Assembly (NCBI GenBank): GCA_025358075.1
Contig: JANYKU010000089.1
Location: 1-64,000 of the forward strand
From: Ilumatobacteraceae bacterium
GTDB lineage: Bacteria; Actinomycetota; Acidimicrobiia; Acidimicrobiales; Ilumatobacteraceae
Length of the DNA stretch: 64,000 bases
Reading direction: 5' to 3'
The notes below the pieces were generated by a model. It worked only from the letters and a program-made list of their open reading frames with translations. It was not told the origin of the DNA and ran no database searches. Positions 42,172 through 62,985 of the stretch are shown here, one piece after another; position 1 is the first letter of the stretch, and each line of letters starts with the position of its first letter. The translations under genes and the position numbers were made by a program.

Positions 42172-42633
42172 ATGAGATACACCCTCAGAGTGCTCGTCGC
42201 GGTCACGAGTGTGCTGACCGTCGCATCGCCGGCTTCCGCCGGCTCCGTCCATTCCGCCGCCGCCGATCGGGCGTACGTCGAACACATGCTGTACGCCACA
42301 CCGATCAGCGGATTCATCGCCGCCGTCGGCAGCGACCAGTGGTTCAACTGGAGCACCGACTTCTGCTCGGCACCGCTGGTCGGCAACACCGGCCGGTCGT
42401 TCAACTTCACCAATGCCTGCCGTCGTCACGACTTCGGGTATCGCAACTTGCACCTGCTCGACCGACGCTATGGGTCCGGCAACTGGAACAGCATCAGTCG
42501 CCGACGCGTCGACCGCCAATTCTTGGTCGACATGATGGCCCATTGCCGGTCACGAGCCTGGTACGACGAGCCGACATGCTTCGCCTGGGCCGAGACCTTC
42601 TACGCGGCGGTGCGCATCGCCGGCGGGGTCTGA
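42172..42633 (+). CDS. secreted prokaryotic phospholipase A2
   Basis: A 153-residue protein with a signal peptide (LRVLVAVTSVLTVASPASAG) and the prokaryotic PLA2 core: the catalytic His-Asp dyad in NACRRHDFGYRNL, four Cys that can form two disulfides (DFCSAP, NACRRH, AHCRSR, PTCFAW) and a Gly/Ser-rich N-terminal substrate loop. It matches the Streptomyces violaceoruber enzyme type in size. ATG at 42172 has CGAGGAG 7 bases upstream. It should release fatty acids from phospholipids outside the cell. Confidence 0.9.
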   Translation: MRYTLRVLVAVTSVLTVASPASAGSVHSAAADRAYVEHMLYATPISGFIAAVGSDQWFNWSTDFCSAPLVGNTGRSFNFTNACRRHDFGYRNLHLLDRRYGSGNWNSISRRRVDRQFLVDMMAHCRSRAWYDEPTCFAWAETFYAAVRIAGGV

Positions 42634-44080: not shown

Positions 44081-46034
<1,954 letters not shown>

Positions 46035-46093: not shown

Positions 46094-46120
46094 TTAGCAC
46101 TCGGCTACCGCGAGTGCCAA
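46094..46120 (-). promoter_or_regulatory. CIRCE element (HrcA operator) of groES-groEL
   Basis: TTAGCACTC-N9-GAGTGCCAA differs from the CIRCE consensus (TTAGCACTC-N9-GAGTGCTAA) at one base. On the minus strand TTGGCA at its far end can serve as the -35 box of groES, with the near arm at the -10 position. Confidence 0.92.
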
Positions 46121-46142: not shown

Positions 46143-46169
46143 TTAGCAACCGGGAGGTGAGAGTGCTAA
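46143..46169 (+). promoter_or_regulatory. second CIRCE-like element, at the promoter of the paralog operon
   Basis: TTAGCAACC-N9-GAGTGCTAA keeps the exact N9 spacing and a perfect right arm, with two mismatches in the left arm. It begins 49 bases after the first CIRCE and lies 26 bases before the ATG at 46195, where a -35 region would be; CAGGAT (46181-46186) may be the -10 box. Confidence 0.7.
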
Positions 46170-46194: not shown

Positions 46195-47757
46195 ATGCGC
46201 GATACTCGCGAGGTGAAGGCCTCTGGCCTGCAGGGCGATTCGCCGTCGGAGATCATCGAGATTTTCGACGGCGATCCGGATGGCTTCGATAACCGCGCCC
46301 AGAGTCACACGACCGACGACCACGGAGGCCCACGATGGATCGGGCCGGTCGCCGTGCTCGCCCTCGTCGCCGTGATCGGCTATGGGGTGGTGACCTCGAC
46401 CTCGGCGAGTAGGTCACCGAAGGTGGCCAGCGCTCCGAGCACCTCCCAAGTCCCACGAACGACGCTGCCGGCGCCGTCGACGACCTTGCCGCCACAGCCC
46501 ACCGTTCCCTTCTACGCGGCAGACCCGCCGCGCCAGTTCAAGATCCAGTACGCCGATGCTGCAATCGCCGACAGGGGCATCGGAGGCGACAGCAGGTTCC
46601 AGCTGTGGGCAACGCGGGCTTCGATTTCCACGCCGCGATCATGGTTCTCGATCACCAGCTCCCCTGGCAGTAGTGGCCTCACGGTTCAGAGCGCCTACCG
46701 ATTGAAGACCGACCGCGGCGTGTTCGCGATCTCGCATCTGCCGTCGGGACAATCGAGCGCACAGTTCTGGTCGAACTCGGACTGGCTACTTCTCACGGCG
46801 TTCGGTTTCAGTGACGACGACCTGGTGCGGCTCGCCGAGTCGGTCACCGTTGGCAGCAGCAACAACAACAGCACCAGCGGCACGTTCTTCTTCGCCGAAC
46901 CGGCCCTCGTCGCCGGCTACGAAATGATCAGCACCGTGGATCCATGGGCCGCGGTTCAAGGCCAACCCCCGGAACAGGTCTTCTACTCGGCTGCCGGTGA
47001 TCCGTTCGGTGGCTTCGGCATCAGCGTCGCGCCGCTGCGGCTCGGGGGCAACGGCGACTTCACGCTCGATCGACAGAGCGCGCTCCAGTTCCTGATCGAC
47101 AACGTGTCGCCGTTCACCGTCGACGGGCACGATGCCGTTGCCGGTGACCTCATCACCCAGCCCGGCTTCGCCCTCGCCAGTTGGTCGGCCGGCGATCACA
47201 TGGTCACGGTGTCGGGAAAGATGTCGGTGCCGCAACTGATCGCCATCGCCCAAACCGTGCACCAAGTCAGCGCCGAAGAGTGGGCGGGCATGAAGTTCCA
47301 AGCCATCCACAACACCGCAGAGACCAACAACAGCAACAACAACTCGGCGGTCAACACACCGACACCCGTGCCCGTGTCGTTGGGTACCGACGGCCTTGCC
47401 AGATCATGGACGATCCGAGCGGCCCTGGCCACGTACGGCAACATCCGCCAGATCAATTGGGAATGGAACTGGAACGACGGCAACATCTCGACGACACCAC
47501 AAGACGGCGCGCAGATCAACACCGTCGTCGATAACGACCGCACGTACGTGCTCGCCGACCTGCCCCGGGCAATCGCTGCCACGGCCGAGTTGCACGTCAC
47601 CCCGGCTGGGCTCGACCCTGTGGTGATCCCGTTCAACGACATCGATCCGTCGTCGGACCGCACCCTCGCCGCCTACGCGTTCAGCGAGCCCGGGCCGTAC
47701 ACCGCCCAGGTCGTCGGTGCCGATGGCACCGTGCTCGCCACCTGGCCGTCGTCGTGA
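46195..47757 (+). CDS. paralog A: Cys-free single-pass membrane protein of an undescribed four-member family
   Basis: About 520 residues. A short acidic cytoplasmic start (SEIIEIFDGDPDG) is followed by GGPRWIGPV and one membrane helix (AVLALVAVIGYGVVTS), a Thr/Pro/Ser linker and a large outside part. In the outside part two related-looking modules end in DDDLVRLAESV and VPQLIAIAQTVHQVS, similar in style to DUF4367-type repeats, and the last domain ends in a DGTVLATWP motif. Asn-rich stretches (SSNNNST, ETNNSNNNS) occur only in this copy. No Cys. ATG at 46195 is chosen, 8 bases after CAGGAT; a GTG at 46213 would match the paralogs' starts. Function unknown. Confidence 0.75.
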   Translation: MRDTREVKASGLQGDSPSEIIEIFDGDPDGFDNRAQSHTTDDHGGPRWIGPVAVLALVAVIGYGVVTSTSASRSPKVASAPSTSQVPRTTLPAPSTTLPPQPTVPFYAADPPRQFKIQYADAAIADRGIGGDSRFQLWATRASISTPRSWFSITSSPGSSGLTVQSAYRLKTDRGVFAISHLPSGQSSAQFWSNSDWLLLTAFGFSDDDLVRLAESVTVGSSNNNSTSGTFFFAEPALVAGYEMISTVDPWAAVQGQPPEQVFYSAAGDPFGGFGISVAPLRLGGNGDFTLDRQSALQFLIDNVSPFTVDGHDAVAGDLITQPGFALASWSAGDHMVTVSGKMSVPQLIAIAQTVHQVSAEEWAGMKFQAIHNTAETNNSNNNSAVNTPTPVPVSLGTDGLARSWTIRAALATYGNIRQINWEWNWNDGNISTTPQDGAQINTVVDNDRTYVLADLPRAIAATAELHVTPAGLDPVVIPFNDIDPSSDRTLAAYAFSEPGPYTAQVVGADGTVLATWPSS

Positions 47758-49241
47758 AGACCGAGCGCCTGCCCGAGATCATCCAGGTCATCGAGCTCAT
47801 CGACGACGACAGCGACGCGTTCGGCGACCGGCAACGCACCGGCACGAGCAACGACACCGGTGGCCCGCGGTGGATCGGGCCGGTTGCTGCGGCGGCGCTG
47901 GCCAGCCTGATCGGCTACGGCGTGATCACCTCGGCGTCGACCAACGGGGCACCGAAGACCGCATCGATCACCACGACAACCGTCGCCTCGACTCCAACGA
48001 CGCGGCCGGATCCGGCCAGCAGCGTCGTGCCGGCCGTGGCAGATGCGTACTACGCGGCCGACCCGCCGCCCGGGTTCACGGTTCAATACGCCAACGTCCA
48101 ACCGCTCGACCACCCCCCCTTCCAGGGATACGGCTACGAGCTGTGGGCCACCCCCGACGCCTCAGCGTCCTCGGGTAGGTGGTTCTCGGTGGTGACCTAC
48201 AGCGGCGCCTCCACGCTCACCGCGCCCGACGCCTATCTGCTGGTGGCCGGCCCGCTGTCGTTGGCGATCTCGCACACGGCAAGCGGACACACCATCACCC
48301 AGTTCTCCGAGAACGGGCGCATCGGCGTCACGATCACGTCGTTCGGGTGGACCGACGACGACCTGGTGCGGCTGGCAACCTCGATCCAGGCCGACGAGCA
48401 CAGCGTGGGCTTCACCGACGCATGGTTCCAATCCGACCTCGCTCTTGTCAGCAACGTGCAACCGTGGCTGGCGGTGCAGAGCATTCCCGCCGAGCAGATC
48501 AGCTACATGGCAACCAGCGACCCGGCCAACAACGTCGTCATCACCGTCGGTCACCGTTTGCAACTGGACGAAGTCGGATCGGCCGACCAACGCCAGATCG
48601 CCATGCGGTTCCTGCTCGACCCGAACGTTCCCTTCAACGTCGACGGCCAGCAGGCAGTCGCCGGCACCATCGTCGGCCAGGGCGACCGCGCCCTGGCCAC
48701 GTGGATCAGTGGCGACCACGTCATCACTGTCAGCGCAAACATGCCCGCCTCGCAACTGATCAATGTCGCCCGCACCGTGCACCAGGTCTCGGCGCGAGAG
48801 TGGGACGGCATGCGCTTCCAGGCCGAACACAACCAGGTCAGCACCTCGCGCTACGAACACGGTTCTGCACACACGCTGGCCAGCGGGTCCGACACCAACT
48901 CCGAAGTCACGATGGCGACTGCCGTCGTCGGCGGGCAGCGACAGATCAGTTGGTCGTGGGGCAGCAACGGCTTGGCCACCACGCCAACCGACGTGGCACA
49001 GATCCACACGATGGTCGACACCGATCACACCTACGTGCTGGCCGATCTGCCGCGCAACGTCTCCTCGTCAGGTTTCTTGAACGTCGTCCAGAACGGGCAT
49101 CAGTTCGTCATGCCGTTCATCGACGTCGATCCATCCGTCGACCGCACTTTTGCCGCGTTCACCGTCGCCCTACCAGGACCCTTCACCGTCGAGATCCTCG
49201 GCGCGGACGGCGCAGTCCAAGCCGTCTGGCCCAAGCCGTGA
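47754..49241 (+). CDS. paralog B of the Cys-free membrane protein family
   Basis: A 495-residue paralog starting at GTG inside the stop of paralog A (GTGA). Shared landmarks are PEIIQVIELIDDDSDAFGD, TGGPRWIGPVAAAALASLIGYGV, YYAADPPPGFTVQYA, WATPDASASSGRWFSV, FGWTDDDLVRLATS, PFNVDGQQAVAGTIVGQ, ASQLINVARTVHQVS, HTYVLADLPR and PGPFTVEILGADGAV. The cytoplasmic part is only about 40 residues, so any signalling would have to run through that acidic helix. No Cys. Confidence 0.75.
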   Translation: MKTERLPEIIQVIELIDDDSDAFGDRQRTGTSNDTGGPRWIGPVAAAALASLIGYGVITSASTNGAPKTASITTTTVASTPTTRPDPASSVVPAVADAYYAADPPPGFTVQYANVQPLDHPPFQGYGYELWATPDASASSGRWFSVVTYSGASTLTAPDAYLLVAGPLSLAISHTASGHTITQFSENGRIGVTITSFGWTDDDLVRLATSIQADEHSVGFTDAWFQSDLALVSNVQPWLAVQSIPAEQISYMATSDPANNVVITVGHRLQLDEVGSADQRQIAMRFLLDPNVPFNVDGQQAVAGTIVGQGDRALATWISGDHVITVSANMPASQLINVARTVHQVSAREWDGMRFQAEHNQVSTSRYEHGSAHTLASGSDTNSEVTMATAVVGGQRQISWSWGSNGLATTPTDVAQIHTMVDTDHTYVLADLPRNVSSSGFLNVVQNGHQFVMPFIDVDPSVDRTFAAFTVALPGPFTVEILGADGAVQAVWPKP

Positions 49242-50716
49242 GCACTGACGAATCCCTCGAGATCATCGAGATCATCGACGACGAGACCGATCCGTTCGGC
49301 GATCGTTCGCCTACGGTCGCGATCGACGACGCGGGCGGGCCCCGATGGATCGCACCGCTCGCCGTCGCCGCGCTGGTCGGCCTGATCGGTTACGGCGTGG
49401 TGACCTCGGGCGGCGGTTCGCCAAAGGCCGCACCGGTCACCAGCACCCGCACGGCGCCACCGACCACACCGGCGCCGACGACGACCAACGTCGTCGCGCC
49501 ACCGGCCTTGGCGTACTACGCAGCGCAGCCGCCGCAGGGGTACTCGGTGCGCTTCGCCCAGAGCCAGCAGTTCGCCAACGATTTCGGATTGATCGACTAT
49601 CAGTTGTGGGCCACGCCCGATGCCTCGGCGGCAATCGGATCGTGGTTCTCGGTCACCACATCACCGGGTGCCCCTGCGATGTACGCGACGGACTCGTACC
49701 GGCTGCAGGGCGGCGACCTGTCGATCGCCATGTCGCGCACGACCGACGGGCACGCGGTGGCCCAGTTCACCATTCCCGGCCACACCGGGGTGACCGTCGC
49801 CTCCTTCGGCTGGAGCGACGACAACCTGGTGCGGTTGGCGTCGTCGATGCAAGCAAATCAGTACGGATTCGCGTTCACCGACAACTGGTTCACCTCTGAC
49901 CATCAACTGATCAGCACGGCGCAACCATGGCTCGCTGTGCGCGGACTGCCGGTCGAGCAGATCGTCTACACGCCGTCCACGGATCTCAGCGACGCCGTCG
50001 TAGTCACCGTCGGTCAGTTGCCTCCTGTCGCTGCGGGACCAGCGACCGACGACCGTCAGGTCGCGCTGCGCTTCCTGCTCGACCGCAACACACCGTTCTC
50101 CGTCGACGGACATTCTGCGATCGCCGGCACCGTGATCGGGCAAAGCAACTACAGCATCGCCACCTGGCTCGACGGCGACAACATCGTCACGGTCGGCGCA
50201 ACGGTGCCGGTGTCGCAGCTGATCACGATCGCCCGATCGGTGCACCAGGTCCCCACCTCGGTGTGGGCCGGCATGCAGTACCAGGCCGATCAAGACCAAG
50301 CCGTCCAAGCGACGACCGACGAGACACCATCGCTCCCGGTCTCGTTCGGCACCGACGCCAACTCCGAGCCCTGGACGATCCAGGCGTCGGTAGCCCACCT
50401 CGGCGACCAGCAGAAGATCACATGGTCGTGGAGTGCGCAGAGCGGCGCGACGACGGCGCTCGAGATCGCCCAGATCAACACCGTGGTCGACGACAAGCGC
50501 ACGTACGTGCTCGCCGACCTTCCTCGCGCCGTCGCCGCGGCCGCCGAGCTCCATCTGCTCCGTGACGGGCTCGACCCGGTGGTCATCCCGTTCCTCGACA
50601 TCAACCCGACCCTCGACCGAACGTTCGCTGCCTTCGCCTTCACCGAATCGGGGTCATTCACCGCTCAAGTCGTTGCACCCGACGGAACGGTCCTCGCCAG
50701 CTGGCCCTCGCTGTGA
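49238..50716 (+). CDS. paralog C of the Cys-free membrane protein family
   Basis: A 492-residue paralog, GTG start in the stop of paralog B. It is closest to B: ESLEIIEIIDDETDPFGD, GGPRWIAPLAVAALVGLIGYGV, YYAAQPPQGYSVRFA, LWATPDASAAIGSWFSV, FGWSDDNLVRLASS, PFSVDGHSAIAGTVIGQ, VSQLITIARSVHQVP, RTYVLADLPRAVAA and DGTVLASWPSL. The linker is Ala/Pro/Thr-rich. No Cys. Confidence 0.75.
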   Translation: MSTDESLEIIEIIDDETDPFGDRSPTVAIDDAGGPRWIAPLAVAALVGLIGYGVVTSGGGSPKAAPVTSTRTAPPTTPAPTTTNVVAPPALAYYAAQPPQGYSVRFAQSQQFANDFGLIDYQLWATPDASAAIGSWFSVTTSPGAPAMYATDSYRLQGGDLSIAMSRTTDGHAVAQFTIPGHTGVTVASFGWSDDNLVRLASSMQANQYGFAFTDNWFTSDHQLISTAQPWLAVRGLPVEQIVYTPSTDLSDAVVVTVGQLPPVAAGPATDDRQVALRFLLDRNTPFSVDGHSAIAGTVIGQSNYSIATWLDGDNIVTVGATVPVSQLITIARSVHQVPTSVWAGMQYQADQDQAVQATTDETPSLPVSFGTDANSEPWTIQASVAHLGDQQKITWSWSAQSGATTALEIAQINTVVDDKRTYVLADLPRAVAAAAELHLLRDGLDPVVIPFLDINPTLDRTFAAFAFTESGSFTAQVVAPDGTVLASWPSL

Positions 50717-52212
50717 AGTCGGGAGCCGCACCGGAGACCCTCGAGATCATCGAGATCATCGACGACGAGGTCGAGTTCCGCAATGGTCGCTACACGACCC
50801 ACGATGCGGTCCCCGATGTCGGTCGACGCTGGGTCGGTCCCGTTGCTGCTCTCGCCCTCGTCGCTCTGATCGGCTTCGGCGTGATCACCCCGGCCAACTC
50901 GTCCGGCGCGACGGCACGACCAGTTCCGACCACACCTCCACCGTCCACCACAGTCAACTCATCGGTGGTCGACACCGTGCCCGCCGTCAACCTCATCAGC
51001 CCGCAGTTCTACGTCGCCGATCCGCCGCCGGCCGGCTTCACGATGCACTTCGCCGAAACGCTCGGCATGGGCGGCAACACCGCCGACTTCACCGACACCA
51101 CCACAGCCCAGTTGTGGGCCAGCGACGGAGCAACGGCAAACAGCGGCACGTGGTTCGTCGTCTCGCGTGGCACCCACCACGCCACCGGCCGCAACTCGTA
51201 CCGCACCCTTGCCGGTGATGTGATCGTGGTCGTCGAACACGATCCCGCCTCGGGTCAATCGCGCCTGTCGTTCACCAAGGACGGCGACAGCTTCGAGATC
51301 ACCGCGTTCGGGTGGGCCGATCGGCAACTCCTGCGTCTCGTCGATTCGATCTGGCTCGCAGATTCGAAGATCGAGTTCCAAGACCCGTTCTTCCTCAGCG
51401 ACCACAAGTTGCTGCTCGACGCCGATCCACCGACTGCGCTCTACGGACTGCCGGTCGCGTGGGTGGGCTACACCGTGGCCCTCCCGGCGTCGCTGGCCCA
51501 AAGCTTCACCGTCACCGTCTCCGGCTACCCAACTGCAAACCGCGACGTCGCCATCCGCTTCGCACTCACCGACAGTTCGCCGATCACCGTCAACGGCCTC
51601 CCCGGGATCGTCGGCCGCTCGGCTGCCGACCCCGGATTGGTGATCGTGCAATGGCGTGATGGCAACCGGCTGATCTCGCTTCGCGGCAATCTTCCCCTCG
51701 TTCCTCTCGTGGCCATTGCCCAAACCGTTCAAGCCGCACCCGACGACGCCGTGACGGAAATGGTCGATGCCGGCGCGCAGTCGATCCCGCCCGCACTCGA
51801 TGCACAACCGCACACGGTCGGCTCCGGCTGGCTCGGAGGCCCATGGATCGTGCAGGTCTCGACCGCAAGCTCCGTGGTGACGCCGGAATGGTTCGTGTGG
51901 TGGATCGGGCAGCCGGGCGGGAACTCAACGCCGTCGGAGACGCGGTTCAGCATCGCCGAACCTGGACCCAGCATCGAGACGCTCGTCGAGCAAGGAAGGA
52001 CGTATGTGCTGGCCAAGGTGCCGCGTTCGATGACCGGGGCGACGCTGCACGTCCATCGCAACGGTCAGCCATCGGTGGAGCTTTCACTGCTCGACGTCGA
52101 TCCCGGCCTCAACGATGAGTTCGCCGCGTACGCGTTCGCCGAACCCGTTCCGTTCACCGCCCAGATCGTCGACGCCACCGGACAGACCATCGCGAACTGG
52201 CCGTTGACCTGA
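50713..52212 (+). CDS. paralog D, most diverged of the Cys-free membrane protein family
   Basis: A 499-residue paralog, GTG start in the stop of paralog C. It keeps TLEIIEIIDDEVEF, RRWVGPVAALALVALIGFGV, FYVADPPPAGFTMHFA, FGWADRQLLRLVDS, PITVNGLPGIVGR, LVPLVAIAQTVQ, RTYVLAKVPRSM and PFTAQIVDATGQ, but has lost several charged positions (DDDLVRLA became DRQLLRLV) and has its own C-terminal insertions. It ends the operon; no clear terminator lies in the 8-base gap before the convergent maf gene. Confidence 0.72.
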   Translation: MKSGAAPETLEIIEIIDDEVEFRNGRYTTHDAVPDVGRRWVGPVAALALVALIGFGVITPANSSGATARPVPTTPPPSTTVNSSVVDTVPAVNLISPQFYVADPPPAGFTMHFAETLGMGGNTADFTDTTTAQLWASDGATANSGTWFVVSRGTHHATGRNSYRTLAGDVIVVVEHDPASGQSRLSFTKDGDSFEITAFGWADRQLLRLVDSIWLADSKIEFQDPFFLSDHKLLLDADPPTALYGLPVAWVGYTVALPASLAQSFTVTVSGYPTANRDVAIRFALTDSSPITVNGLPGIVGRSAADPGLVIVQWRDGNRLISLRGNLPLVPLVAIAQTVQAAPDDAVTEMVDAGAQSIPPALDAQPHTVGSGWLGGPWIVQVSTASSVVTPEWFVWWIGQPGGNSTPSETRFSIAEPGPSIETLVEQGRTYVLAKVPRSMTGATLHVHRNGQPSVELSLLDVDPGLNDEFAAYAFAEPVPFTAQIVDATGQTIANWPLT

Positions 52213-52220
52213 CGTCGACG

Positions 52221-52799
52221 TCAGCCGGCCAATCGCAAGAAGTCGATCCCACAGCGTTGGGCGAGCTCGATCACGACGTGCAACGGCAATCCGATCACGT
52301 TGCTGACGCTGCCGCGAACGAGTTGTACCAGTGCTCCGCCGGCACCTTGCAGCGCGTACGAACCTGCCTTGCCCATCGGCTCGCCCGTAGCGACGTACCA
52401 ATCGAGCGTGACGTCGTCGAGATCGACGAACGTCACCAAGGTCGTGCAGACCTCGGCGACCTCGAGATCACCGAGCCGCACGGCGACGCCGGTGTGCACC
52501 TTGTGCGTGCGCGCCGACAGACGACGCAACATCGACGCCGCATCACGCGCATCCAGGGGCTTGCCGAGGATCTCGCCGCCGAGCTCGACCGTCGTGTCCG
52601 CGGCGATGACCAGTTCGTCCGCGGTTGCAATCACCGCGGCAGCCTTGGCAAATGCCAGCCGCCGCACGTACTCCGTTGGGGTTTCGTCACCGGTCGGCGT
52701 CTCGTCGATGTCGGGCACGCGCACCGAGAAGGGCACGCCGATCTGCGTCAGCAGCTCGTGACGGCGCGGCGAGCCAGAAGCAAGGACGACCGCGGTCAT
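52221..52799 (-). CDS. maf: Maf-family nucleotide pyrophosphatase
   Basis: A 192-residue Maf protein with VVLASGSPRRHELL, AADTTVELGGEILGKP (catalytic Asp) and GKAGSYALQGAGGALV. Such enzymes hydrolyse dTTP, UTP or modified nucleotides and are linked to septum formation. ATG at 52799 overlaps the dusB stop. Confidence 0.93.
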   Translation of the reverse strand: MTAVVLASGSPRRHELLTQIGVPFSVRVPDIDETPTGDETPTEYVRRLAFAKAAAVIATADELVIAADTTVELGGEILGKPLDARDAASMLRRLSARTHKVHTGVAVRLGDLEVAEVCTTLVTFVDLDDVTLDWYVATGEPMGKAGSYALQGAGGALVQLVRGSVSNVIGLPLHVVIELAQRCGIDFLRLAG

Positions 52800-59234: not shown

Positions 59235-59612
59235 TCACGAGGCGACGACGTATGCGATGGCGACCTGATCGGTGTGGGTGATCGACAAGTGCCACGTGGC
59301 GATGCCCCGCTCGCTGGCCAGCTCCGCGGCGCGGCCGGTGACGTTCAGCTGCGGTTCACCGCTCTCGCGATGATCCACCCATACATCGTGAAACCCGAAG
59401 GCGCCGAGGCCGAGCCCCATCGCCTTCATCACGGCCTCGCGTGATGCGAACCTGGCCGCCAGAGATGGCACAGGGTCGGCCTTCGGCGCTACGTACGCCA
59501 GTTCACTTTCGGTGAACAGTCGCCGATGCATCGAGGGCGTGCGTTCGAGCGACTTGCGGAACCTTTCGATGTCGACGGCGTCGATTCCGATCCCCAGGAT
59601 CAGGCCCGCCAT
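59235..59612 (-). CDS. acpS: holo-[acyl-carrier-protein] synthase
   Basis: A 125-residue phosphopantetheinyl transferase with LGIGIDAVDIERF (metal Asp), RFASREAVMKAMG (Glu/Lys) and WHLSITHTDQVAIAYVV. It activates fatty-acid ACP. ATG at 59612 lies inside the end of the glmS-type gene (13-base overlap). Confidence 0.95.
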   Translation of the reverse strand: MAGLILGIGIDAVDIERFRKSLERTPSMHRRLFTESELAYVAPKADPVPSLAARFASREAVMKAMGLGLGAFGFHDVWVDHRESGEPQLNVTGRAAELASERGIATWHLSITHTDQVAIAYVVAS

Positions 59613-62600
59613 TGGTCTGCGGCCTCGGAGATCGGTGCAATCAGCAGATCGGCGACGGCGAACTCGCCGAGCAGATCGTCGCGGAACACTCCTTCGGTCT
59701 CCGTCACCCAGTCGACGAGGCGGTCGTAGCGATGGTCGTAGCCCTGCAGCACGCCGCGCATGACCGCAGCGGGCAGCCGATCGTGGAACACCACGTGCAA
59801 CAAGGTGATCCCGGTGCACACGCCGGACTTGACCTCCGGCACCATGATCACCGTGCGACCGTCGCTGCGCCCGCGGGCGACGAGGACTTGCCGCTCGGCG
59901 GCGACGCGCCGCTTTGTACCGACGAGTTGCGGGTTGCGTTCGACGCGACTCGACACCTCGAGGGAGAGCCCACCGCGCTCGACGATCGACACCTGGGCAT
60001 CGACCGCCGGGTCACCGTCGATGCGGTAACGGGTGAACCCGATCACGGACTGCACGGCAGGATCGAGGTCGGCAAGAACCTTCAACGTCTGATAGCTCAG
60101 CGTGTCGCGGCCCGCACCTGCCGCGAGCGCGGCCTGCACGAGCATTCGATCGAGCACTCCTTCGTCGTTGCGGCTGATCCCCACGGTGACAGTCTTGGCC
60201 TGATGCTTGATGGCGTCCACTGGTCGAGTGAGCTCTTCGATGGCTCGGGTCAGCGAAGCAGTGAGATCGTCGATCATCACGCCAGGTGTCGCCACCTTCC
60301 CGGTGCCTCGGTGGTACGCCTCGAGCGGGAGCTCGTCGCGCAGGTCGGCGAGCAACGCCGACAGTCGCACGGCCGTCGAGGCTTCGAGATGACCGTCGTA
60401 CAGCCCGGAGCGCAAGCCTTCGCCGAAGCGTTCGGCGTGATGGCCGATCCCCTGGCGAACGTTCTTGAGCACCTCGTCGCCGATGTCGGAATCGACCAGC
60501 GCATGCTCGATCACCTCTCTCGCTTCGCGAAGCGGCCGGGCGGAGGCATCGATCGCCAATGCGGCTTCGTAACCGAAGAGATGGCCGACCATCGCGGTCA
60601 GCAAGAAGGCCAGCGCCGAATCCACGGCCGGCACCGACAGCACCGCCGCCGCGGCCGCGAAGCGCTCGTCGCCTTCGGTGGCAATGACGATCGGTGTGGC
60701 CTTGTGGGCCTTGTAGATCGCGACTTCCTTGGCGACGTCGTCGGCAGTGCCGCCGACCAATCCCGCCGCGCACACCAGGATCAACGGCTCGCTCGACAGA
60801 TCGATGTGCTTCTTGTCTTCGGTGACGTCGCAGGCGATCGACTTGTAGCACAGCTCGCTGAGCTTGATTCGCACCTCTTCGGCAGCAACCGTGTTGGGGC
60901 CGCTTCCGACGATGGCCCAATACCGCTTCGACGGCGCGAAGTGGCGAGCCGCGTCGCCGATGACCTCGCGGCGCGACAACACTTCGACGAGCGCGTCGGG
61001 CAGTTGCCGCAGTGATGTGAGCAGGACGTGACGACGTTGGGCGGAGCCGACGTTGGCGGCCTCGGTGATGGCGCAGGCCAGCAACACCCCGGCCGCGACC
61101 TGTGCGTAGAACGCCTTGGTCGATGCGACGCTCATCTCGACGTCGCGCCCATCACTGGTGTACATCACGCCGTCGGCTTTGTCGGTGAGATCACTGTTTC
61201 GCCGATTGACGATTCCGATGACGGCCGCACCGCGACCACGAACGAGATCGACCGTGCGATTGGTATCGGTGGTCGTTCCACTCTGGCTGACGGCGACGAC
61301 CAAGGTGTCGCGCATGTCGAGACGCATGCCGAAGCCGCTCAGTTCGGTGGCCGTGATCGGGTCGACATCGAGCCGCCCGTCGGCCAACGCGTCGAGCATC
61401 GCCGCCATGCTGCGGCCGGCCACCGCTGCCGTGCCCTGGCCGATCACCTTGATCTTGGTGATGCTGCCGTCGGCGAGCCGGGCGCGGATGTCGAGCGGGA
61501 GTGCTCGGGATCCGACCGTGGCGCGCAGCAAACCGTCGACCTCCACGATCTTGCCGCGGATGGTCTTGCGGAAGCTGACCGGTGCCTCAGTGATCTCCTT
61601 CAGGAGGTAATGAGGTGAGTCACCGCGATCGATGTCGCGGGTGGTGACCTGGGCGATCGCGATATCTTTCTCCGCGAGCGGCAGCTCGCCGCCGTCGTAC
61701 GCCAAACGCCGCAAGCCGTCGAGTTGACCGGCCTTGGTCCCGTCGAGCACGAAGACCTGCCCGCGACTGCCGGAGGGAGACAACGACTCGCCGTCCATAC
61801 GTACGAAGCGGGTCGTTTCCTCGACGACACCGTACGGTTCGCTGGCGACGATGAAGTGGTCGTCGTTCATGCCGACGTACAGGGCCTGACCGCTGCCGCG
61901 TAGTGCAAGGAACAACTGGTCGGGCCGGTCGGCCGCCGCGGCGGCGATCGCCACGCTGCCTTCGAACTCGGCCACGGTGCGACGGAACGCCTCACCAAAA
62001 TCAGCAACGCCGCCGGCCACGTGACGAGCCATCACTGCCGGGATCACCTTGGCGTCGGTCGTGATCGGCCCGGCGATCCGCAGCCCGTGGTGGATCTTGA
62101 TGTCGGCATGGTTGTCGACGTCGCCATTGAGCACGGCGACCATGTAGGGCGCGCCGCCGGTCTGCTCGAGCTCTTCGCTGTTGAGCGGATGGCAGTTCGC
62201 CTCGCTGATGATGCCGACACTGGCCCACCGCGTGTGGCCGAGAACCGAGAGCCGCGCTTCGGGCTGCGACAGTGCCAGGCGGAGAAGCGAATCGTCGGCG
62301 ATCGCAGCGCGCAGGGCGCTGGTGTTGTCGCCGAGCTCGCCGATCTCGGCGGCGGCCTTGTAGACGAAGCCCAAGCACCCGCCGGCGACGCGCACCGAGC
62401 CGTTCTGGAACAGCGGATCGCTGTTGCGCTCGAAGACCGCCCGCTGCACCACCGCATCGGACGCCGACAACCCGTGATTCCACACGAAGAGGTGCAAACC
62501 GGCCGAGTCGCGGCCTCGCACCTCGAGCCGGTCGAGCGCCGACAATGCCTGCTGGATGGCCAGGTATCCGGCGATTGCCGCAATCGTGCTGTCTCGGCCG

Positions 62601-62985
62601 GCAGCGCCTCGACTTCGCGAGCCGTGCGGAGCCGGTCGTGCCGAATGGCCCATGTCGCATCGCGGAGGTCGATCAGCTGGGCGGCGATGCGCTCGTGCTC
62701 GTCGGGATCGAGTGAAACGTCGGACTCGATGCGGTTCTCCTCGGCGGCCGCCCGGGCCTCGAGCTGATCCAGCCTGGCGACGATGCCGACGGCCAGCTCG
62801 TAGCGGCCGATGAGTGCGCACACACCGGGCACACCCTTCAGGAGGTCGTCGCAGAGGCGAGCGGCGGCGGCCGCCTGATCGAGGCTGCCGGCCGCAACTG
62901 CCTGATCGAGCGGAGCCAGCACCTCCTCAGGCTCGGGGGCCCGCCGCTGGGAGGGCCTACTGAGGATGCCGATGATGCCGCACAT
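59600..62985 (-). pseudogene. glmS: large GlmS-type protein (class II glutamine amidotransferase plus SIS domains), frameshifted
   Basis: Begins MCGIIGI at 62985, so Cys2 is the glutaminase nucleophile. The first frame runs about 130 codons, then homology (DSTIAAIAGYLAIQQALSALDRLEVRGRDSAG) continues one frame away from 62593 to the stop at 59600, giving about 1130 residues in all. A single-base loss in GAG/GAC at 62591-62595 explains it. The glutaminase domain has an extra 110-residue helical insert after MCGIIGI, and the SIS part (VAVSQSGTTTDTNRTVDL, SVASTKAFYAQVAAGVLLA) is followed by about 350 further residues. GlcN-6-P synthesis is expected if the lesion is a sequencing error. Confidence 0.8.

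Follow-up and report, generated by a model that had tools for sequence, protein, structure and literature searches.

By the evidence of their sequences, four tandem genes (A–D) in the 64-kb stretch of DNA analysed here (the window) descend from a family of envelope sensors associated with ECF sigma factors, and they lie beside groESL. We think the chances about even that their products are orphan, duplicated sensors of the ECF-partner type which have become placed beside a heat-shock promoter; elsewhere in the bacterial family, homologues are putative membrane partners (anti-sigma factors or sensors) of ECF sigma factors. If this is true, the sensor portion of an ECF sigma system can become detached, be moved beside the promoter of a cytosolic chaperonin and be expanded, and cytoplasmic heat shock would be linked to envelope sensing in the little-studied actinobacterial class Acidimicrobiia. 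There would also be a handle on the combination of two DUF4367-like domains with a C-terminal beta domain, which occurs in many unannotated ECF-partner proteins, and the short cytoplasmic tail motif would be a directly testable docking site.

The array and its promoter region

A preliminary description of this DNA had recognised four paralogous genes of 492–520 codons with GTGA overlaps, sharing a series of motifs; the open reading frames and their alignment agree with this (Table 1), and the motifs listed are found in A–D. Identities to A are 43% for B, 46% for C and 33% for D (33–48% among the four), and D is indeed the most drifted copy. A single strong hydrophobic helix is present in each protein; it begins at residue 38–49, lies within residues 38–67 and is preceded by an acidic N-tail (net charge −4 to −9). 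The single-pass topology and lack of cysteine reported earlier also hold good: the four proteins, 2006 residues in all, contain no Cys, whereas the other proteins of the window would lead one to expect 19.5. This is not a family-wide trait, as homologues in the sister genus g11 have 0–4 Cys. We likewise agree that no enzyme motif is apparent. The 25 bases upstream of B, C and D contain no Shine–Dalgarno-like sequence, which fits translational coupling; the earlier suggestion that the genes are co-translated is upheld, and re-initiation at GTGA is the likely way in which B–D are translated.

Table 1. Features of the array and its surroundings (positions in the window; gene names of neighbours were read from their sequences)
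Feature	Position	Strand	Remarks
groEL	44081..45727	-	
groES	45741..46034	-	divergent neighbour of the array
CIRCE element 1	46094..46120	.	TTAGCACTC-N9-GAGTGCCAA, 1 mismatch; proximal to groES
CIRCE element 2	46143..46169	.	TTAGCAACC-N9-GAGTGCTAA, 2 mismatches; its end lies 25 bp ahead of the start codon (ATG) of gene A
gene A	46195..47757	+	520 aa, ATG start; in-frame TTG at 46186
gene A, parts			acidic N-tail 1-48, TM 49-67, Thr/Pro linker, D1-D2 residues 105-370, C-terminal beta domain
gene B	47754..49241	+	495 aa, GTG start overlapping the stop of A (GTGA)
gene C	49238..50716	+	492 aa, GTG start overlapping the stop of B (GTGA); structure modelled
gene C, D1-D2 tandem of DUF4367-like domains	49511..50287	+	residues 92-350; model pLDDT 79.6, pTM 0.75
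gene C, C-terminal beta domain	50333..50713	+	residues 366-492; missing in L025, L029
gene D	50713..52212	+	499 aa, GTG start overlapping the stop of C (GTGA); most diverged copy
maf	52221..52799	-	convergent neighbour closing the slot; then dus, tsaD, rimI, tsaB, tsaE, alr

Within the 160 bp that separate groES from gene A lie two CIRCE (HrcA) sites, the only ones in 64 kb with four or fewer mismatches, and HrcA is encoded in the window genome (E 5e-45). Neither this CIRCE pair nor the slot between groESL and maf is mentioned in the preliminary description. As there is no promoter space for the array other than these 160 bp, its control by HrcA is likely, to judge from position. A double CIRCE with a spacing of about 48 bp and a variant half-site (GGTTGCTAA) recurs in the groES promoters of this bacterial family. 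It is present upstream of groES in relatives that have no array (L027, L028, L030, L033, L039 and L040), from which it follows that the pair predates insertion of the array; this rules out the second CIRCE having arisen to serve the array. A full-text literature search (HrcA, CIRCE, Actinobacteria) found no membrane sensor-type genes sharing a groESL CIRCE region, and one on DUF4367 found nothing describing such arrays, an absence from one library that is no proof of novelty.

Two other genes of the window may be mentioned here. A small secreted protein encoded at 42172–42633 has a CRRHDFGYRN motif, in which we presume a resemblance to prokaryotic phospholipase A2, and a similar gene is found near groEL in three relatives (L135, L137 and L139). 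At 59600–62653, on the minus strand, there is an open reading frame of 1017 residues with what we take, as an impression from the sequence, to be a glutamine-amidotransferase-like start; it appears unusually long for GlmS.

Outer domains, cytoplasmic tail and the link to ECF sigma factors

No Pfam, NCBIfam or PADLOC model scored above its cut-off with A–D, Rfam gave nothing usable, and a search of the PDB by sequence gave nothing meaningful. The best recurring sub-threshold match was to DUF4367 (PF14285), on the end of D2 (E 0.19 and 0.27), with 12.2–12.7 bits for A and B against a gathering cut-off of 22.1 bits and no match for C and D. The earlier view that the proteins belong to no recognisable family thus stands for curated models, but is limited to these, since profile–profile comparison finds homology to membrane proteins associated with ECF sigma factors. 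The outer part of A–D consists of two DUF4367-like domains, D1 and D2, which appear to be two copies of a single repeat unit (hhalign 85%, E 6e-6), and the C-terminal beta domain. A profile of slot proteins (A4; the slot is the interval between maf and groES) was aligned by hhalign with a profile (A6) built from six ECF-partner proteins at a probability of 98.8% (E 8.7e-17, 316 columns); the alignment spans D1 through D2 into the C-terminal domain, the transmembrane helix and low-complexity linker lying outside it. The reverse genome search with A6 recovered the window array (E 1.3e-9, 1.6e-7, 2.3e-6 and 7.9e-6).

Weaker relatives elsewhere in the family's genomes were found with a profile of 15 slot proteins. 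Directly ahead of nine of the 13 non-slot relatives that were matched through their outer domains there is a sigma gene: seven of these sigma–partner junctions overlap by 4 bp and one by 8 bp, and one has a gap of 3 bp. Five sigma genes neighbouring relatives were confirmed with Pfam. The remaining four relatives have no adjacent sigma gene, and none was found in the 64-kb window with a profile built from the relatives' sigma factors. In one genome, three sigma–partner pairs of this type lie side by side (L185:3-4680), which suggests that duplication, with the sigma gene carried along, may be another way in which such modules multiply. A search for DUF4367 among relatives gave one match, in the window's own genome, where contig C173 contains an apparent remnant of a sigma/DUF4367-partner pair (L156:4841-6172): here sigma region 2 continues into a tail of the anti-sigma type and a transmembrane helix, followed by a stop and an open reading frame for DUF4367 above the Pfam cut-off.

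In genus g21 (G020, G078, G114, G136 and G147), most full-length homologues (588–769 aa) have an extra N-terminal region resembling an ECF sigma factor, which passes the Pfam cut-off for Sigma70_r4_2 in G078 (E 7e-8), is weak in G147, and is degenerate and below threshold in the other fusions. A sigma-like domain must be cytoplasmic, and homology to these proteins therefore predicts an N-in topology for A–D. In the fusions of sigma-like domain, transmembrane helix and D1–D2–C-terminal domain, which come from this one genus (L149:5837-7600, L152:341-2476, L154:6185-8299, L150:3853-6132, L151:6069-8066 and L020:4121-6091), the rate of evolution is higher in the sigma part than in the outer part, and L149 is the only one whose sigma part passes Pfam; some of them may thus no longer direct transcription.

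The cytoplasmic tail of A–D is acidic and 37–48 residues long, with a consensus (xxIExIDxDxxAFG) that is recognisable in three genera among the slot proteins, and also in g11 paralogues located outside the slot; within the window genome the motif is significant only in A–D, the next match being marginal (E 0.067). Neither an anti-sigma domain nor an HxxxCxxC zinc motif was found in this tail, which is free of Cys, has a pLDDT of about 30 and matches no domain in Pfam. A–D resemble class I ECF anti-sigma factors in having a single transmembrane helix with an extracytoplasmic domain of the ECF-partner type, but not in lying beside, or being fused to, a cognate sigma factor, as nine of the 13 outer-domain relatives and the g21 fusions do. 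As a sigma partner and an anti-sigma domain were both looked for without success, we do not claim membership of the anti-sigma family. It might still be supposed that A–D are anti-sigma-like regulators acting in trans, with their acidic tails binding at least one ECF sigma factor whose gene lies elsewhere, and their diverged outer domains allowing one sigma factor to answer several envelope signals. Homology to sigma-adjacent and sigma-fused proteins would be explained by this, as would a tail motif recognisable across slot proteins that are otherwise very diverged; but tails so short and acidic, predicted to be disordered and with neither a zinc finger nor a recognised anti-sigma domain, and 64 kb devoid of a sigma gene, make us regard it as rather unlikely.

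Structural modelling was most informative for D1–D2 alone, which models well (six sequences; Table 1). The full-length model of C was modest (pLDDT 63.6, with a disordered tail), and the Foldseek matches to full-length models were rejected as noisy (mostly with rmsd above 15 Å, and spurious multi-domain matches), leaving the D1–D2 construct as the only usable one. When this was compared with the PDB, RseB or MucB provided 13 of the first 15 matches (best E 8e-4), with TM-scores of only about 0.2, which make them a pointer rather than a fold assignment; the PsbP fold was also in the list (probability 1.00, rmsd 5.0 Å over 131 columns). RseB and MucB, which combine a LolA-like N-domain with a smaller C-domain, regulate an ECF sigma factor, so these matches point in the same direction as the genomic evidence.

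With RseB, MucB and PsbP as the top structural neighbours of the D1–D2 model, and a promoter space of 160 bp with its double CIRCE common to groES and the array, one could also envisage heat-shock-linked envelope chaperones or lipid-binding proteins, co-induced with GroESL, whose PsbP/RseB-like domains would play no part in signalling but would themselves bind lipids or secreted proteins that have misfolded. This would leave the conservation of the cytoplasmic tail unexplained, and ligand binding is itself conjectural; we consider it very improbable.

Copy number and duplication in the groESL–maf slot

The array occupies a conserved slot between maf and groES, divergent from groESL, as emerged when relatives were retrieved through GroES and by whole-genome search (genomes in or near Ilumatobacteraceae, Acidimicrobiia). 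The slot is empty (about 95–180 bp from maf to groES) in L026–L028, L030, L031, L033, L034, L036, L037, L039, L040 and L058. Where it is filled, the homologues are divergently oriented, as in the window, and they number one in G010, G086, G098 and G110 (L135, L138, L139/L029 and L140/L025), at least one in G154 and G101, two in G032, G132 and G173, at least two in G164, three in G036, and four in G017, in G076 (over two contigs) and in the window. Some single-copy homologues (360–375 aa), including those of L025 and L029, are without the C-terminal domain. There are further irregularities among the relatives: the first slot gene of L166 (1452-3833) has at least 794 codons and is open at the contig end, possibly representing two fused copies; the second slot gene of L141 (8232-9828) is split into two open reading frames, likely through a frameshift or because the copy is decaying; and g11 genomes have an extra gene of 364–366 residues between tsaD and dus (L025:5803-6903 and L029:3423-4517), which is absent from the window.

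A maximum-likelihood tree with 41 family members places the window's A–D in a clade of their own (support 100/99), the twelve slot proteins of genus g18 in a second (98/97) and the twelve of g11 in a third (100/100). Tandem multiplication therefore took place independently in at least three genera, and the same tree rules out that the four copies are orthologous subunits common to several genera. Whether the slot was filled once or several times was addressed in a tree with ECF-partner outgroups, which did not recover the slot proteins as monophyletic but did not reject their monophyly either (p-AU 0.093). Between orthologues of G017 and G076 (g18), omega is 0.22–0.32 for all four copies, indicating purifying selection on each of them.

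These results bear on the equally dosed heteromeric assembly that the preliminary description had proposed. The synteny that it suggested surveying proved to be conserved as regards the slot but not the copy number, which ranges from one to four, with single copies among them; together with the clade-specific origin of A–D, this indicates independent duplications and not four conserved subunits, and the assembly is not borne out as a general rule, a fixed four-subunit complex not being required. That A–D nevertheless make up a structural or adhesive extracellular complex in the envelope, dosed equally by translational coupling and with sensor ancestry only as history, would be in keeping with GTGA coupling in the absence of ribosome-binding sites, with the occurrence of four-copy arrays in two genera, and with Thr/Pro-rich linkers that hold the domains away from the membrane. 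In view of the lineage-specific paralogues, the single copies in the same slot and the loss of the C-terminal domain from some of these, we judge such a complex quite improbable, while hetero-oligomerisation of A–D within this genome is possible.

A possible stress relay and its relation to known systems

If A–D are orphan sensors, an ancestor having no sigma partner, and with a short acidic tail in place of the longer cytoplasmic segment, would have landed divergently beside groESL and then, in this genus, have been duplicated in tandem to give four translationally coupled copies. Under heat or folding stress, HrcA would be titrated away from both CIRCE sites, and groESL would be induced jointly with the array. 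The proteins would insert N-in, as in their sigma-fused relatives, with D1–D2 and the C-terminal domain outside, where the PsbP/RseB-like domains may bind a ligand signalling envelope stress, for instance a lipid, a cell-wall fragment or unfolded protein. Occupancy might then be relayed through the transmembrane helix to the tail, which would bind a partner in the cytoplasm; this could be a sigma factor from another locus. Several points count against this reading. The CIRCE pair was there before the array and has groES to serve, so that HrcA control of the array is deduced from its position; no known anti-sigma domain would fit in so short a tail; no sigma partner has been found for A–D, and the sigma link is through homology and not through association at this locus; and four of the 13 outer-domain relatives are themselves without an adjacent sigma gene. 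A more radical form of the same idea, to which we give little credence, is that the array is a sigma-independent transmembrane stress relay, in which ECF-type ectodomains detached from sigma and controlled by HrcA signal via IExIDxDxxAFG to a cytoplasmic partner, with the number of paralogues tuned in each genus.

Among known systems, the array has in common with the HrcA/CIRCE regulon that two CIRCE sites lie in its only promoter region and that HrcA is encoded in the genome. The likeness to DUF4367 is a weak match of A–D at the end of D2, in every case below the curated cut-off, whereas one ECF-partner relative reaches E 6e-4. RseB and MucB, the periplasmic regulators of sigma-E that lead the Foldseek list for D1–D2, are likewise two-domain, mostly-beta extracytoplasmic stress sensors, but they are soluble and bind RseA or MucA, whereas A–D are membrane-anchored and the TM-scores are as low as about 0.2; no operon of the RseA/MucA type is present among the called genes of the window. 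The N-terminal domain of RseB/MucB has been predicted to bind a lipid signal (PMC7400510).

Closest are the putative anti-sigma partners of the same bacterial family (among them L171, L172, L183, L184 and L185), whose genes follow ECF sigma genes directly and mostly overlap them by 4 bp, and which have the same N-in arrangement of one transmembrane helix, linker, two DUF4367-like domains and C-terminal domain. Most of these have a longer cytoplasmic segment, whereas A–D have a short acidic tail, no sigma gene and tandem paralogues. Membrane-anchored extensions fused to sigma factors are known in Actinobacteria from ECF48, ECF52 and ECF53, and from SCO4117 (PMC8999054), and the g21 homologues share their layout of sigma domain, transmembrane anchor and extracytoplasmic sensor; no zinc finger was seen in the g21 fusions, and their tie to ECF48/52/53 is one of layout. 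A–D themselves differ in having no sigma domain, and it is through the outer domains that the g21 fusions are tied to them. The g21 fusions are thus a variant of a known theme, and the less familiar part is the occurrence of sigma-less tandem arrays beside groESL.
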